NCBI GenBank assembly: GCA_013178315.1
Contig: JABLWX010000010.1
Coordinates: 1-42,786, forward strand
Direction: 5' to 3'
DNA: 42,786 nucleotides
Source of the DNA: Candidatus Aminicenantota bacterium
Lineage (GTDB): Bacteria > Acidobacteriota > Aminicenantia > Aminicenantales > Saccharicenantaceae
Positions 3,899 through 8,670 of this stretch are shown piece by piece. The translations under genes were made by a program, and so were the position numbers. Positions within the stretch are counted from its first letter, which is position 1; every line of letters starts with the position of its first letter. The notes under the pieces were generated by a model, which saw only the letters and a program-made list of their open reading frames with translations, did not search any database and was not told the origin of the DNA.

Positions 3899-3920
3899 CC
3901 TCAAGTTTTGCTACTTGAGG
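3899..3920. terminator. Hairpin between convergent genes (possible bidirectional terminator)
   Basis: A perfect 8-bp stem CCTCAAGT/ACTTGAGG with a 6-base loop lies between the end of hypF (+) and the end of the zinc-ribbon gene (-), and includes the latter's TAG stop. No clear T-tract follows on either strand, so it may be a weak or factor-assisted terminator, or may only protect mRNA ends. Confidence 0.35.
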
Positions 3921-4705
3921 GAAATTCTTCTCCGGCTTTTTTCCAGCCTGAAACCTGGCTCCCCGAAAAAATAGATGGCCGCGTTGACCAGCAGGGCCAG
4001 CAGGAAGCCCGAGGCCGCGGCCAGGACAAAGCCAAACACACCGCCCAGCAGGCTGAAAATTAAGCCTCCCATTAACTTGCCCTGCATTTCTTTCAGAAAG
4101 GCCGGCAGGATGGCCACCAGCCCCGGGAAAAACTCCGTGGACCCAAGTACCAGTCCGAAAAGAATCCCGAGGAAAATTCCCAGCCCGCCCGAAAATAGCA
4201 GGAACGAAACCTGGTCAACCGAACGCAGGTAGACTGTTCCGCTATCAGCCGGTTTCTGCTCCAGCCTGGCGGTCTCGACTTTTTCTTCGGGAATTGCTTC
4301 CTCTGCCTGGCCGTAGAGCCCCGCTCCGCAGAAGGGGCAGGTTTTCAGGCTCTGGTCAATCAGGTTTCCACACTCAACGCAGACAATTTTGGTCGGAGTC
4401 TTAACCAGGGCTGCCCCGCAGGCCTCGCAGTTCCTGGCCTCCGGCTCGTTTTGATGGTAGCAGCTCGGACAGAGAATGGATTCGCTCCCGTCCTCGGGCG
4501 GCTCTGACTGGATCCACTGCTGGCCGTCGTAATAATACCAGCGGCCGGTCTGGGCCCCGATCATCCAGCAACGTCCCTCGCCGTCCACCAGCCTCAGCTT
4601 CTTCAGGGCTTCGGCATACTGGTCCCGGCTCAGGTCGCCGCGCCTGAACTGCTTGCTCAGTTGATAGAAACTCGCTTCCACCGCCCGAAAACGTCTGTCC
4701 AGCAT
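3911..4705 (-). CDS. Zinc-ribbon membrane protein, unknown function
   Basis: A 264-aa protein. The N-terminal ~80 residues form a helical region followed by a small aromatic motif (GRWYYYDGQQW), reminiscent of short GYF/DUF2510-like peptide-binding modules. Next come two zinc ribbons: CPSC with CEAC, then CVEC with CPFC (about residues 95-145). After a linker there are two long hydrophobic segments rich in Gly/Leu/Phe (about residues 180-250), indicating a membrane hairpin. This layout (short sensor or adaptor, double zinc ribbon, TM helices) is common in poorly characterised bacterial membrane proteins. It converges with hypF and is followed by a shared hairpin. No function can be assigned; the cytosolic ribbons suggest a protein- or nucleic-acid-binding adaptor. 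Confidence 0.65.
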   Translation of the reverse strand: MLDRRFRAVEASFYQLSKQFRRGDLSRDQYAEALKKLRLVDGEGRCWMIGAQTGRWYYYDGQQWIQSEPPEDGSESILCPSCYHQNEPEARNCEACGAALVKTPTKIVCVECGNLIDQSLKTCPFCGAGLYGQAEEAIPEEKVETARLEQKPADSGTVYLRSVDQVSFLLFSGGLGIFLGILFGLVLGSTEFFPGLVAILPAFLKEMQGKLMGGLIFSLLGGVFGFVLAAASGFLLALLVNAAIYFFGEPGFRLEKSRRRISLK

Positions 4706-4907
4706 GTGAACACCCTAAATAAATTTATCTGGAAAGAAGCATTTTAGCAAGTTTCGGAGACAAATATCAGGTGCCTAATTTTTGTGCAGTTAGTTATATC
4801 TTACGCAGACTCAACACATTTGAGCCAGAACCCACGGGCTTTTTGCACAGGCTTTTCCACAAAAATTGTGAATATCTGGCCGGAAACCAAACGGCTGCTC
4901 GTTCAGA

Positions 4908-5816
4908 CTATTTCAGAAGGTCAAGCAGGCTGTTCCCGGAAATGGGCGCGGGTATAAAAGACAGAACAAAAATCAGAGCCACGGCCAGGCTGAGAAATAT
5001 TCTTTTCCTGGAAAATCTCTGTCCAGAATCGGCCACGGCCGGATGCCTGAGACCCATGACCGAGATAAGAACCGCCCAGATGAGCCAGCCTGCCCAGTAA
5101 AAAATGCCCAGCACCAGTAGAATCAGAATGATCCCTGGAGCCAGTCTCCTCATTTTTTCCCCGAACAGGGCGTACAGGATGTGTCCACCATCAAGCTGCC
5201 CCACGGGGAATAGATTGAATGAGGTGACCAGCAACCCGACCCAGCCGGCCACGGCCAGAGGGTGCAGAATCAGGTCCTGGTTCTGTGCCACCGGCCCGAA
5301 GGTCAGTCTGACGAATAGCTTGAGAAGCAGAGGCTCTCCGAATAAGATCGAGCTTTCCCTGGGAAGAGCCGGTATCAGCCTGGATAGCTGCAGGCCAACA
5401 TAAAGCGCCGGAACCGATAATAAGAAACCGGTTAACGGTCCGTTGGCCCCAACGTCAAACAGTTCTTCCCGCCTGGTCAGGGGTGATTTGATCCGGATGA
5501 AGGCCCCCAGGGTTCCGATCAGGGTGGGAGCGGGAATAAAAAAGGGCAGGCTGGCCTGGACCCGGTAGCGGCGACAGGTCAGATAGTGGCCGAGCTCATG
5601 GCCCAGCAGAATGACCAGCAGAGATAGAGAATAGACCAGGCTGAGCTTGATCAGGGCTGGCTCCAGGAACAGAGATAGATTGAGAGCCCCGGAGATATCA
5701 TCAGTATTCTGCCCGGCAAAAAGATAATTTATCCCCCATAGGTAGCCGACAAAGTAGGTAGATAGTATGGTCAGGATAAAAAGGACAAGATTTAACCACC
5801 TCTTGCCAGACAACAT
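4908..5816 (-). CDS. Site-2 protease-type membrane metalloprotease (M50)
   Basis: A 302-aa polytopic membrane protein of the M50 intramembrane metalloprotease family. The zinc-binding motif HELGH is at residues 73-77 inside a hydrophobic helix, and the third ligand motif NLFPVGQLDGGH is in a later helix, as expected for site-2 proteases. Several other hydrophobic segments surround them (about 10-32, 60-80, 120-150, 190-215, 235-255). No PDZ domain is present, so it resembles the small PDZ-less group rather than RseP. Such enzymes cut single-pass membrane proteins, often anti-sigma factors; no partner is visible here. It is transcribed away from the ferredoxin terminator just upstream, so it probably has its own promoter. 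Confidence 0.85.
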   Translation of the reverse strand: MLSGKRWLNLVLFILTILSTYFVGYLWGINYLFAGQNTDDISGALNLSLFLEPALIKLSLVYSLSLLVILLGHELGHYLTCRRYRVQASLPFFIPAPTLIGTLGAFIRIKSPLTRREELFDVGANGPLTGFLLSVPALYVGLQLSRLIPALPRESSILFGEPLLLKLFVRLTFGPVAQNQDLILHPLAVAGWVGLLVTSFNLFPVGQLDGGHILYALFGEKMRRLAPGIILILLVLGIFYWAGWLIWAVLISVMGLRHPAVADSGQRFSRKRIFLSLAVALIFVLSFIPAPISGNSLLDLLK

Positions 5817-5822
5817 GACAGA

Positions 5823-5859
5823 TTAAAAAACAAAACAGGAGTGCCGCAGCACTCCTGTT
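5823..5859 (-). terminator. Rho-independent terminator after the ferredoxin gene
   Basis: Read on the minus strand, an 11-bp perfect stem (AACAGGAGTGC with its complement, 4-base loop) is followed by TTGTTTTTT. It lies just downstream of the ferredoxin stop and just before the M50 gene start, so it should separate the two units. Confidence 0.85.
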
Positions 5860-5874
5860 AAATTCCAGAAATAT

Positions 5875-6123
5875 TCAGCTGCCCTTAAGGCGACGGGCCT
5901 TGGCTTCCAGCTCTTCCCTTCTTTCCCGGTGGTCAGGATCGGGAACGCAGGCTCCGCTGGGGCAGACCGAGGCGCACTGGGGCTCATCAAAAAAGCCCAC
6001 GCATTCGGTGCACTTGTCCGGGTTGATTTCGTATCTCTCGTCGCCGGGAGAGATAGCCTGGTTGGGACATTCGGGTTCGCAGGCTCCACAGTTGATGCAG
6101 TCTTCAGTAATCTTGTAAGCCAT
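5875..6123 (-). CDS. 2[4Fe-4S] ferredoxin (YfhL-like)
   Basis: An 82-aa ferredoxin with two cluster-binding motifs: [12 protein letters not shown] near the N-terminus, and a second motif with an insertion, [18 protein letters not shown]. The extended loop between the second and third cysteines of the second motif is typical of the YfhL/Allochromatium-type ferredoxins, which have very low potentials. The acidic, charged C-terminal helix ([17 protein letters not shown]) is also usual. It would be a soluble cytosolic electron carrier for anaerobic metabolism; no dedicated partner enzyme is adjacent. A strong terminator follows, and a plausible promoter with TATAAT precedes it, so it is probably monocistronic. 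The start is set by AGGAGG upstream of ATG. Confidence 0.93.
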
Positions 6124-6152
6124 TTCTTCCTCCTTTTCTGTATGCTATATCT

Positions 6153-6180
6153 ATTATATTCCCCTGCCTTAAATAAACAA
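6153..6180 (-). promoter_or_regulatory. Candidate sigma-70-type promoter for the ferredoxin gene
   Basis: Minus-strand TTGTTT (6175-6180), a 16-base spacer and TATAAT (6153-6158), about 30 bases upstream of the ferredoxin ATG, with AAAGGAGG between. Good -10, weak -35. Confidence 0.45.
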
Positions 6181-6192
6181 TACTCCTTCCGG

Positions 6193-6849
6193 TCAACGAC
6201 CGGTTTCCAGCTTCATCACCTTCATGGCCGCCTGGTAGCCGTAGTAGGTATTCTGGTAGTTGGACTGCAGGTCCCGGTAAAGGCTGATTGCCTGGTCTTT
6301 CTGTCCCGCCTTCTCATAAGTCTCGGCCAGCCGGAACAGAACCACGTCCAGGGGGTAATCTCCAGGTTTTTCCTTCTCCATCTGACGGTAAATTTCAATC
6401 GCCCGGTCGGATTGACCCCGCCTGGACAGGACCTGAGCATAAAGATCAAGGATCTGATAATGAACCAGGTCGCGGCCGCGGTCCTTGACCCCGGTGAGGA
6501 CCTGCTCGGCCTTGTCCAGCTCGTTCTTTTCAAGATAGTAAGTGGCCAGGGTCAGGCTGGCTATCCGTCCGTATTTTCTTTTCTGGGCCAGGGTTTCCAG
6601 CCTGGCCAGGTTTTCGGGTTTCTGTCCCAGTTCAGCCTTGAGAGCCAGGATCTGGCTCAGGTAACCCGCCTCCCGGCTCCTCTGGTAGTCAAGGAAGAAT
6701 CTGACCCCGACAATTATGGCCAGCAGGGCCACCAGGCCCAGGGCTATAGCCATGAATTTCTTCTCGTGTTTTTTCACCCAGCGCACGAACCGGCTCAGTC
6801 CGGTGGCCAGTTCATTTTCTTTCAGCTGTTTTCTCTCCGCTCTCTTCAT
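6193..6849 (-). CDS. Membrane-anchored TPR protein (YfgM-like)
   Basis: A 218-aa protein with a short basic cytosolic N-terminus, one transmembrane helix at about residues 33-53, and then several degenerate TPR helices (for example the repeats around LATYYLEKNELDKAEQVL, DRAIEIYRQMEKEKPGD and KDQAISLYRDLQSNYQ). Topology and size match the YfgM/tetratricopeptide proteins that project into the periplasm and act with the Sec translocon and periplasmic chaperones, or in outer-membrane protein assembly. Sequence alone cannot separate these roles. The next gene downstream (ferredoxin) seems to have its own promoter, so this gene may be a single unit. Confidence 0.7.
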   Translation of the reverse strand: MKRAERKQLKENELATGLSRFVRWVKKHEKKFMAIALGLVALLAIIVGVRFFLDYQRSREAGYLSQILALKAELGQKPENLARLETLAQKRKYGRIASLTLATYYLEKNELDKAEQVLTGVKDRGRDLVHYQILDLYAQVLSRRGQSDRAIEIYRQMEKEKPGDYPLDVVLFRLAETYEKAGQKDQAISLYRDLQSNYQNTYYGYQAAMKVMKLETGR

Positions 6850-6982: not shown

Positions 6983-8290
6983 TTAATAGCTGAACTTCAG
7001 GAGTCCGGCCTTTTCCCTGATCTGCTTTCTGATCTCCTCTTTGCTTAAAAGGCCTTCCTTCTCGGCCTTGATGGCCTGGAAGAGTTCATAGGTGGTCAGC
7101 AGGCCGTTTCCGTCCTTTTCCGCTTCCTCCACCTGGAACTGGGAATATGGGTTGTTCCGTAGCTTGGCCTCAACCAGGTTGAAATAATTGCCAACCAGAA
7201 TGGCCTTCATCCTGGTATTGTCGAATTCCTGCATGCGGCGGCCCTTGAACCTCTGCAGCAGGATGCAGTCGTCGTCGGTGGCCCAGTTGCGGCTGCTCCT
7301 GATAACCACCAGTATCAGAAATTCCTTGCGCAGGCAGACTTCCACCGGCTGGTCGTTATTCTCAATGAGCCACAGGTCTTCCTCTTTATCCCTGATGACG
7401 TTCTTCCAGTACTGGTCCACGTCCACCACCTTGGCCCAGCCCAGATACTTGAAGGCCTGGAGGACGGCTGCCTTCAGTTCCTGGCCCTCGGCCTTGAGCA
7501 ACCGGTTGAAAGCCTCCTGCTGGGTTTCCCGCAGGGTCCTGATCTGTTCATCGAGCTCCTTCAGCCTTTCTTCGAATTTCTTCTTTTCTTCTTCTTTTTT
7601 AAGGAACAATTCCTTGATTTCCGGGAAAAGGTATTCCTCCTTGTCAATCCAGTCCATCTGTTCCACCTCCTTGCCTTTCATTTCCATGAGCGGGAAAACA
7701 TCTTTCAGGATGAAATCGGCCACCTTGATGTTGTTCTGACCGAACCAGGGCAGCAACCAGATGAAGCCCTTTCCCTTCCTGATCATCAGGGAAACCGGAT
7801 AGCCATCATGGCTCTTGGCCACAATTTTCCAGCTTTCGTTCATACTGGCGGGGACCTCCCAGATGTCGGCACCGAAAGAGTTGGGCAGCAGCTTGTAAAG
7901 ATGGGCCAGGCTGCTGGAAAATTTCTCAAAAACCAGGTTGAAGGGCATCTCCGGTGTCACCAGCAGCACCTCGCCCGGGGTCGATTCCTGAAAATGAATA
8001 TCGGGGAAAGCACCGATAACGCCGGTCAGCTGGTAAAGATGTCCCTTGCCGACAAAGCAGACCACCCTGGCTCCGTCCACCACCATTTCCTGGACCTTCT
8101 CGGCCAGTCCGCCCGGAACGGCCTCCTCTTCTACCGGCCAGTTAAGCTGATAAAAAATGGCCCTGGCCTCGGGCAGGATGGTCGGCAGATTCCTGAAATC
8201 GGAGGTATGGATGAGAAAGGTATCGACCTGTTCCTGTTCCAGGTACTCCTTGTCTCTATCCTCAAAATCCAGCAGGATAACCCTGTTCAT
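6983..8290 (-). CDS. Unknown protein with coiled coil and degenerate PD-(D/E)XK-like C-terminal domain
   Basis: A 435-aa soluble protein with no signal peptide. Residues 1-200 form an alpha/beta region containing ARVVCFVGKGHLY and GFIWLLPWFG, resembling a Rossmann or GATase-like module. Residues 222-262 are an acidic/basic coiled coil (KKEEEKKKFEERLKELDEQ). Residues 263-410 resemble the restriction-endonuclease-like fold seen in some bacterial and archaeal proteins: a helix with LLKAEGQELKAAVLQAFKYLGW, then EEDLWL with Asp305, then VEVCLRK where E-x-K should be, then KAILVGNYFNL and LLTTYELFQAI. Glu317 is kept but the catalytic Lys is replaced by Cys319, so nuclease activity is doubtful. It could be a sensor or pseudo-nuclease. 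The fold assignment is by eye. Confidence 0.55.
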   Translation of the reverse strand: MNRVILLDFEDRDKEYLEQEQVDTFLIHTSDFRNLPTILPEARAIFYQLNWPVEEEAVPGGLAEKVQEMVVDGARVVCFVGKGHLYQLTGVIGAFPDIHFQESTPGEVLLVTPEMPFNLVFEKFSSSLAHLYKLLPNSFGADIWEVPASMNESWKIVAKSHDGYPVSLMIRKGKGFIWLLPWFGQNNIKVADFILKDVFPLMEMKGKEVEQMDWIDKEEYLFPEIKELFLKKEEEKKKFEERLKELDEQIRTLRETQQEAFNRLLKAEGQELKAAVLQAFKYLGWAKVVDVDQYWKNVIRDKEEDLWLIENNDQPVEVCLRKEFLILVVIRSSRNWATDDDCILLQRFKGRRMQEFDNTRMKAILVGNYFNLVEAKLRNNPYSQFQVEEAEKDGNGLLTTYELFQAIKAEKEGLLSKEEIRKQIREKAGLLKFSY

Positions 8291-8519
8291 GGTTCGGTCC
8301 TTTCAAATCTATGATTTCACCCCTTTATTAAAATATTTCGCTCATAAATTTATCACCTTTCAAGGTGAATTAAAAGATGATTTCTGCTCCCCTCATTTGG
8401 CCGGAGCGAAAACCGCCGGCACTTTTTCCCTGTCAGAAAGTGATTAGACTGCCTCTCCCCCTCTGGCCTGACCCCGGCTGACTCTTCGCGCTTGGACTCA
8501 TCATTCTGATGAAGCCAAA

Positions 8520-8594
8520 TGCCCCTGGGGAGACTCGAACTCCCGGCACAGGGATTAGGAATCCCTTGCTCTATCCATACTGAGCTACAGGGGC
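8520..8594 (-). tRNA. tRNA-Arg (anticodon CCT)
   Basis: The minus strand folds as a full cloverleaf: acceptor GCCCCTG/CAGGGGC, D-arm GCTC...GAGC, anticodon stem AGGGA/TCCCT with loop TTCCTAA (anticodon CCT), and T-arm GGGAG TTCGAGT CTCCC. Discriminator base A. The CCA end is not encoded. It reads AGG codons. Confidence 0.95.
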
Positions 8595-8670
8595 ATTCTT
8601 TGCAAGAGTTAAATATAACTTATCGGCCCGACTTTTTCAATCATGAAGGGCCAGAGCTCTCTCGAATTGC

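Follow-up and report, generated by a model that had tools for sequence, protein, structure and literature searches.

Nucleases of the PD-(D/E)XK fold have an alpha-beta-beta-beta-alpha-beta core, and their catalytic motif consists of an Asp followed by (D/E)-x-K on the next core strand. FokI, a type IIS enzyme with a cleavage domain of this fold, carries recognition domains as well. Proteins that keep the restriction-endonuclease fold but are inactive are already known, and catalytic carboxylates that have migrated to other positions are known in Cfr10I and NgoMIV. In a literature search covering titles and abstract openings, we found no description of a domesticated FokI-like family in Aminicenantales.

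The stretch of DNA analysed here (42,786 nucleotides, referred to as the window) belongs to a draft genome of Aminicenantales (2.94 Mb, 155 contigs, 93.7% complete). It contains a gene for a 435-aa protein, present as one copy in the draft genome at that completeness, with no second copy found. The gene and the parts of its product that are discussed below, all on the minus strand, are as follows:

6983..8290, minus strand: the 435-aa gene, encoding a putative degenerate FokI-like protein; an open frame, with homologs likewise open in 38 of 60 genomes
7673..8290, minus strand: residues 1-206, N-terminal alpha/beta domain with a predicted ThuA / class I glutamine-amidotransferase-like fold (VIA fold match)
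7493..7624, minus strand: residues 223-266, long helix, probable coiled coil (DSSP helix in the predicted model)
6992..7522, minus strand: residues 257-433, predicted C-terminal PD-(D/E)XK / FokI-cleavage-like domain (VIA, Foldseek, and E-x-K profile match)
7376..7384, minus strand: E303-E304-D305, D305 being the position where the catalytic Asp is retained (conservation in the clade and its relatives)
7319..7357, minus strand: residues 312-324, with an 11-residue clade-specific insertion holding E317 and C319 (gap in relatives)
7298..7306, minus strand: V329-I330-R331, at the place of the catalytic E-x-K (alignments and residue tallies)
7223..7276, minus strand: helix 339-356, with the clade-gained invariants L345, Q346, K349, G350, and M353-F356, plus R351/R352 (model and conservation)

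A protein search of this genome and its relatives found a homolog in 38 of 60 genomes, including 24 of the 39 of good quality, and in 7 of 21 genera. An alignment of 22 homologs (A1) matched 41 of 142 genomes of the class. Two of these 41 carry distant types (an E-x-K protein in G111 and an E-x-E protein in G067); among the other 39, the homolog in G020 is cut by a contig end before the C-domain and was left out, so that 38 were tallied (G007 by its C-terminal piece only) and are hereafter referred to as the clade. In an even draw across the phylum, 12 of 297 genomes gave a match.

A full-length structure was predicted from a 21-row alignment (pLDDT 71.1, pTM 0.44). In a Foldseek search of the PDB with this model, FokI was the sole match at E 0.001 or better (2fok_B, E 1e-4). 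In VIA, which re-examined Foldseek's own match list, the C-domain (model residues 257-433) aligned with 1fok_A over 146 residues (Z 12.8, rmsd 3.3), followed by BspD6I chains (Z 12.0-12.3; 2p14 at 12.3), HindIII (3a4k, 9.5), VC1899 (9.3), and Can2 (9.0). Against viral models, Foldseek found nothing at or below E 0.001; its first-ranked row was a phage restriction endonuclease (E 0.015). The model consists of helices 223-266 and 270-282, strands 287-290, 306-309, and 325-331, helix 339-356, strand 361-367 that holds ILVGN, and strand 396-399 with helix 400-411 (LLTTYELF), and by both the model and the fold search the C-domain has the PD-(D/E)XK core. Its ten-residue blocks mostly have a pLDDT of 78-91, with 291-300 and 331-340 in the 60s and 311-320 (55) and 371-380 in the 50s; residues 310-324 are mostly loop. 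As the alignment behind the model included E-x-K relatives, its strand placement is not independent evidence on the motif. The C-terminal half is thus predicted, with moderate confidence, to fold as a restriction endonuclease, the FokI cleavage domain being its nearest match. An earlier note on this DNA had proposed such a fold from the sequence, and it was recovered by structure prediction and the Foldseek/VIA fold search; the order of elements given there (helix, two strands, the ILVGN strand, and LLTTYELF) is present in the model, and the proposed coiled coil fits the long helix 223-266 in front of them.

The further alpha/beta domain proposed in the note is also present, at the N-terminus. 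Residues 1-206 matched the ThuA-like 1t0b_A (VIA Z 9.8, rmsd 3.5, 155 aligned), with many amidotransferase-like chains below it in the VIA list and parts of 99-146 poorly modelled.

Sequence similarity to FokI was not found, either as a Pfam match or as a FokI chain in PDB sequence searches, which returned chance-level rows alone (E 0.28 or worse, mostly EF-hand proteins). The Pfam and NCBIfam scans of the 435-aa protein gave no match above cut-off, and with PADLOC and PHROGs added, no nuclease or ThuA family scored above cut-off for the window protein and its relatives; the best weak family match was a dynein heavy chain model (E 3e-4, one of 22 members). None of the defence models in PADLOC-DB 2023 matched the window protein, and seven relatives gave two weak matches (E 0.001 and 0.0045). 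Residues 391-402 (window 7085-7120, EKDGNGLLTTYE) resemble an EF-hand loop and gave chance-level calmodulin rows (E 0.6-3). Calcium binding of the EF-hand type at KDGNG was considered and rejected, as the aligned relatives are without such a loop and the first ligand position varies; the likeness is probably convergent.

Besides the clade, we found a family of relatives with an E-x-K motif on plasmids and viral contigs. By tblastn against plasmids, the G067 and G111 proteins each hit 7 records, of which 1 and 5 respectively were examined; five of these six plasmid proteins have E-x-K-G (EVKG or ETKG) and one has EAEG. With a profile built from six E-x-K members (A4), 21 loci were found on viral contigs, and the six loci found with the Klebsiella protein as query are all on contigs among these 21. 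A motif search in 20 of the 21 loci found E-x-K-G in 19, a count biased by one of the two search patterns containing that motif; in the remaining locus, L088, the frame read ended early. Profile A4 also matches the window gene (E 1.1e-34, 119.5 bits), and in the reverse direction the clade profile A1 finds the E-x-K relative in G111 (1.2e-22), while a scan of viral contigs with A1 found no relative. Aligned by hhalign, A1 and A4 gave a probability of 99.8 (E 5e-28) over 416 columns, the N-terminal part included. The homology between clade and relatives is therefore nearly full-length, and the predicted order of ThuA-like domain, coiled coil, and FokI-like domain, of which the earlier note was aware of no description, is common to both and not unique to the clade.

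In single cases, the plasmid genes have as neighbors a P-loop NTPase and an Abi family protein, phage genes, or an integrase. A search of a phage collection with the G111 protein gave one unannotated record, and megablast of E. coli genomes with the Klebsiella gene gave no near match. The E-x-K relatives are presumably active nucleases that cut DNA. For their extra C-terminal stretch of ~80 residues, many genomes of the class, among them G064, G120, G038, and G100, contain matching short open frames of 84-118 aa (E 8e-4 to 8e-8). Variants of the motif also occur. In L140 (4198-4926, minus strand), a relative that belongs to the same phylum, EIT stands at the E-x-K place; this protein has a register posterior code of 4 and may represent an independent loss of the Lys. 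E-x-E stands in place of E-x-K in L071 (668-2086, minus strand, EIEG) and L077 (5254-6594, plus strand, EAEG), the latter adjoining an integrase gene on a plasmid typed as conjugative; we take this to be a BamHI-like variant, and both proteins may be active.

Alignments to these relatives (A3 and A6) indicate which residues of the window protein occupy the catalytic positions. The relatives read like EEDLxI...(L)xEVKGIGGTSTD, and the window protein reads KEEDLWLIEN, then an 11-residue insertion, then FLILVVIRSSRNWATDDDC, so that D305 falls on their Asp, V329 on their Glu, and R331 on their Lys. The edges of the insertion differ by two residues between alignments (312-322, 313-323, or 314-324), with E317 and C319 inside in all three, and it is a gap in 15 of 15 viral-contig rows of A6 and in all 21 E-x-K relatives of a later comparison. 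E303, E304, and D305 are each present in 38/38 clade homologs, as are D305 and E304 in 21/21 and E303 in 20/21 E-x-K relatives. Position 329 is never acidic in the clade (V17 L11 I4 T3 N2 M1) and position 331 is mostly Arg (R35 K2 A1), whereas their equivalents in the relatives are Glu and Lys in 21/21. On this reading of the alignments the motif is D305-V329-R331: the Asp is retained as the earlier note had said, and the Glu and Lys of the PD-(D/E)XK motif are gone, the Lys mostly replaced by Arg. We consider it very probable that the 435-aa protein is a pseudo-nuclease.

The earlier note was thus right that the catalytic motif is broken, a conclusion strengthened here, but it had misread the residues, taking V-E-V (316-318) as the catalytic strand with Glu317 kept and only the Lys lost, to Cys319. 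If E317-x-319 were the true motif, an extra strand would have been inserted after it. Both D305 and E317 are indeed found in 38/38 homologs; neither outcome that the note had named as refuting its proposal, a model lacking the fold or homologs lacking the Asp and Glu, was observed. Position 319 is Lys in three (G035, G037, and G043); at large, it is variable and little constrained (C11 G9 S8 L4 K3 A2 T1). We checked the register in both directions. With a profile of 22 E-x-K proteins, the Glu state fell exactly at the 329-equivalent for 34 of the 38 family members and within two residues of it for G006 and G047; for G037 and G043 it fell on an E-x-K of the insertion itself, at the 317-319 place (codes 4-6). 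Posterior codes in this test ranged from 4 to *, and were often 6-7. Conversely, the family profile against 25 relatives gave 23 usable rows. Of these, 20 put the Glu at 329, 19 of them with code 9 or *; the other three put it elsewhere at codes 4-6, and not one puts it at 317. The gap placed by hhalign covers 317-319, and by our own reading G035 (locus L041) and the relatives can be aligned gap-free from the strand to the RR pair. Further, G035, G037, and G043 come out as a single nested group (97/87) in the tree described below, and because of this K319 reads as derived. A domain-only model from six close rows does draw 306-311 and 314-317 as strands but not 325-331; it does so at pLDDT 32-36 and with low overall confidence (47.5), and we give it no weight for or against either register. 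The E317-x-319 reading is therefore very unlikely, and Lys to Cys at 319 appears to be a register error.

Gene neighborhoods were compared at 19 loci, the window included, with gene names outside the window taken from our reading of the sequences; for the neighbors in the window there are Pfam matches. In the 14 loci of family f1, genes for an M50 peptidase and a zinc-ribbon protein are nearby, with hypF facing in 13; a TPR membrane protein and a ferredoxin usually lie between these genes and the 435-aa gene, with other ORFs intervening in L128. In the window, the genes for the TPR membrane protein, ferredoxin, M50 peptidase, and zinc-ribbon membrane protein occupy 3911-6849 (minus strand) and face hypF, an arrangement largely kept across f1. 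On the other side, a tRNA-Arg (CCT) gene (8519-8595, minus strand) is upstream of the 435-aa gene, between it and fpg and on the same strand. In four f4/f5 loci, the gene is near a thioredoxin-like gene and secG-tpiA-pgk-gap, and L069 (G088) has neither neighbor set. A fixed operon partner was considered and dropped, as the neighbors differ between families; the gene is located among household genes without a constant partner.

A tree was built from 48 C-domains, 25 from relatives and 23 from the 38 clade members; a branch supported at 98/96 separates the clade from the rest, and several relatives are on long branches of unsure placement. Among 12 genomes of the genus, 26 of 66 pairs passed a dS filter of 0.05-1.5 for the full gene, with a median dN/dS of 0.043, and 28 passed it for the C-domain, with a median of 0.041. 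Mean pairwise identity over the 38 homologs is 67% in the C-domain versus 45% in the N-domain. Six loci allowed a comparison with gatB, ftsX, and fpg together, and there the identity of the protein to the same relatives roughly equals that of the nearby gatB and ftsX and exceeds that of fpg. A decaying, functionless relic of a mobile nuclease might be expected from the lost catalytic Glu and Lys and the missing C-terminal stretch of the relatives, but this is hardly credible given a dN/dS of about 0.04, conservation on a par with gatB and ftsX, and retention in 24 of the 39 good-quality genomes searched.

Between residues 255 and 435, 42 positions are near-invariant in the clade and rare in the relatives (at least 36/38 versus at most 30%; 38 members against 21 E-x-K relatives), 14 of them at 345-369 and 12 at 389-412. 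Another 16 near-invariant positions, including E303, E304, D305, R351, and R378, are common to both groups, R351 and R378 being invariant in each. Taken together, the monophyly of the clade, the purifying selection, the household neighbors, and the 42 gained invariants suggest a new function rather than decay.

Such a function could still be catalytic, and a site made of E317 and the acidic position 341 is the main catalytic rival to the pseudo-nuclease reading. In a re-sited nuclease, metal-dependent cutting would go on with E317 and/or the acidic residue at 341 in place of the lost Glu and with R331 or K349 in place of the Lys. E317, inside the clade-specific insertion, and D305 are invariant, position 341 is acidic in 38/38 clade members (D26 E12) versus 5/21 relatives, and the gene is under strong constraint; on the other hand, position 331 is Arg in 35 of 38 and Ala in one, and 26 of the 42 gained invariants are at 345-369 and 389-412, i.e., a large share of the newly conserved positions falls in other parts of the sequence. 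We regard this as unlikely. Slightly less likely still is a vertically inherited core family of Aminicenantales in which the insertion (invariant E317) and the always acidic 341 form a new metal or ligand site, making the protein an endonuclease-fold enzyme or ligand sensor with a novel arrangement of the active site.

Alternatively, the domain may have come off nucleic acid altogether and now serve as a protein-protein interface. Many of the new invariants are non-basic (W285, Y294, W295, W307, N358, T359, D393-G394-N395, and E412), and in family f1 the gene is near those of the TPR protein, ferredoxin, and M50 peptidase. Set against this scaffold role are R351 and R378, invariant in clade and relatives alike, the mostly basic position 331, and the change of neighbors between families, so that we see it as possible though doubtful.

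We favor instead a domesticated, catalytically degenerate nuclease-fold regulator that is dimeric, holds nucleic acid, and has a sensing N-domain, an account that, taken whole, we hold to be about evenly balanced between right and wrong. In this account, a nuclease of a mobile-element family would have been taken into the core genome of several Aminicenantales families, the direction of change presumably being from a cutting E-x-K ancestor to the degenerate clade. The catalytic Glu would have been lost (V329) and the Lys mostly swapped for Arg (R331), with the Asp (D305) kept. The protein would dimerize via the coiled coil, its basic residues (R331, K349, R351, R352, and R378) may hold nucleic acid with no cutting, and the ThuA-like domain may sense a ligand or partner. 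Binding without cutting, as a regulator or scaffold on nucleic acid, is a mechanism to which we likewise give an even chance, and a sensor or regulator role, as the earlier note had suggested, is plausible.

The locus looks like a mobile-element nuclease that moved into a core genome, where it lost its catalytic residues and acquired a surface that is new and strictly conserved. The availability of E-x-K relatives allows the lost cutting residues and the new ones to be compared side by side. The search also exposed an unannotated plasmid and viral-contig family, made up of candidate nucleases that may serve in defence.

Compared with known systems, the C-domain has nearly throughout the same fold as the cleavage domain of type IIS FokI and the R.BspD6I subunits (Z 12.0-12.8). 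D305 probably stands at the place of the FokI catalytic Asp, the fold alignment giving ranges only. Unlike FokI, the window protein has lost the motif Glu and Lys, and it has a predicted ThuA-like domain and a probable coiled coil in place of recognition domains. Its likeness to ThuA and class I glutamine amidotransferases is a fold match only, in the N-terminal domain; no conserved catalytic Cys was seen, Cys78 being Gly in 4 of 22 aligned homologs. Closest are the ThuA-like / coiled-coil / E-x-K proteins of Enterobacterales and Synechocystis plasmids and viral contigs, which are homologous over nearly the full length with the same order of parts. The plasmid members are annotated as hypothetical proteins. 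Unlike the window clade, these relatives keep the E-x-K (21/21 of those compared) and carry the extra C-terminal stretch that is absent from it. They reside on plasmids, viral contigs, and in one class genome (G111), whereas the clade is found among household genes.
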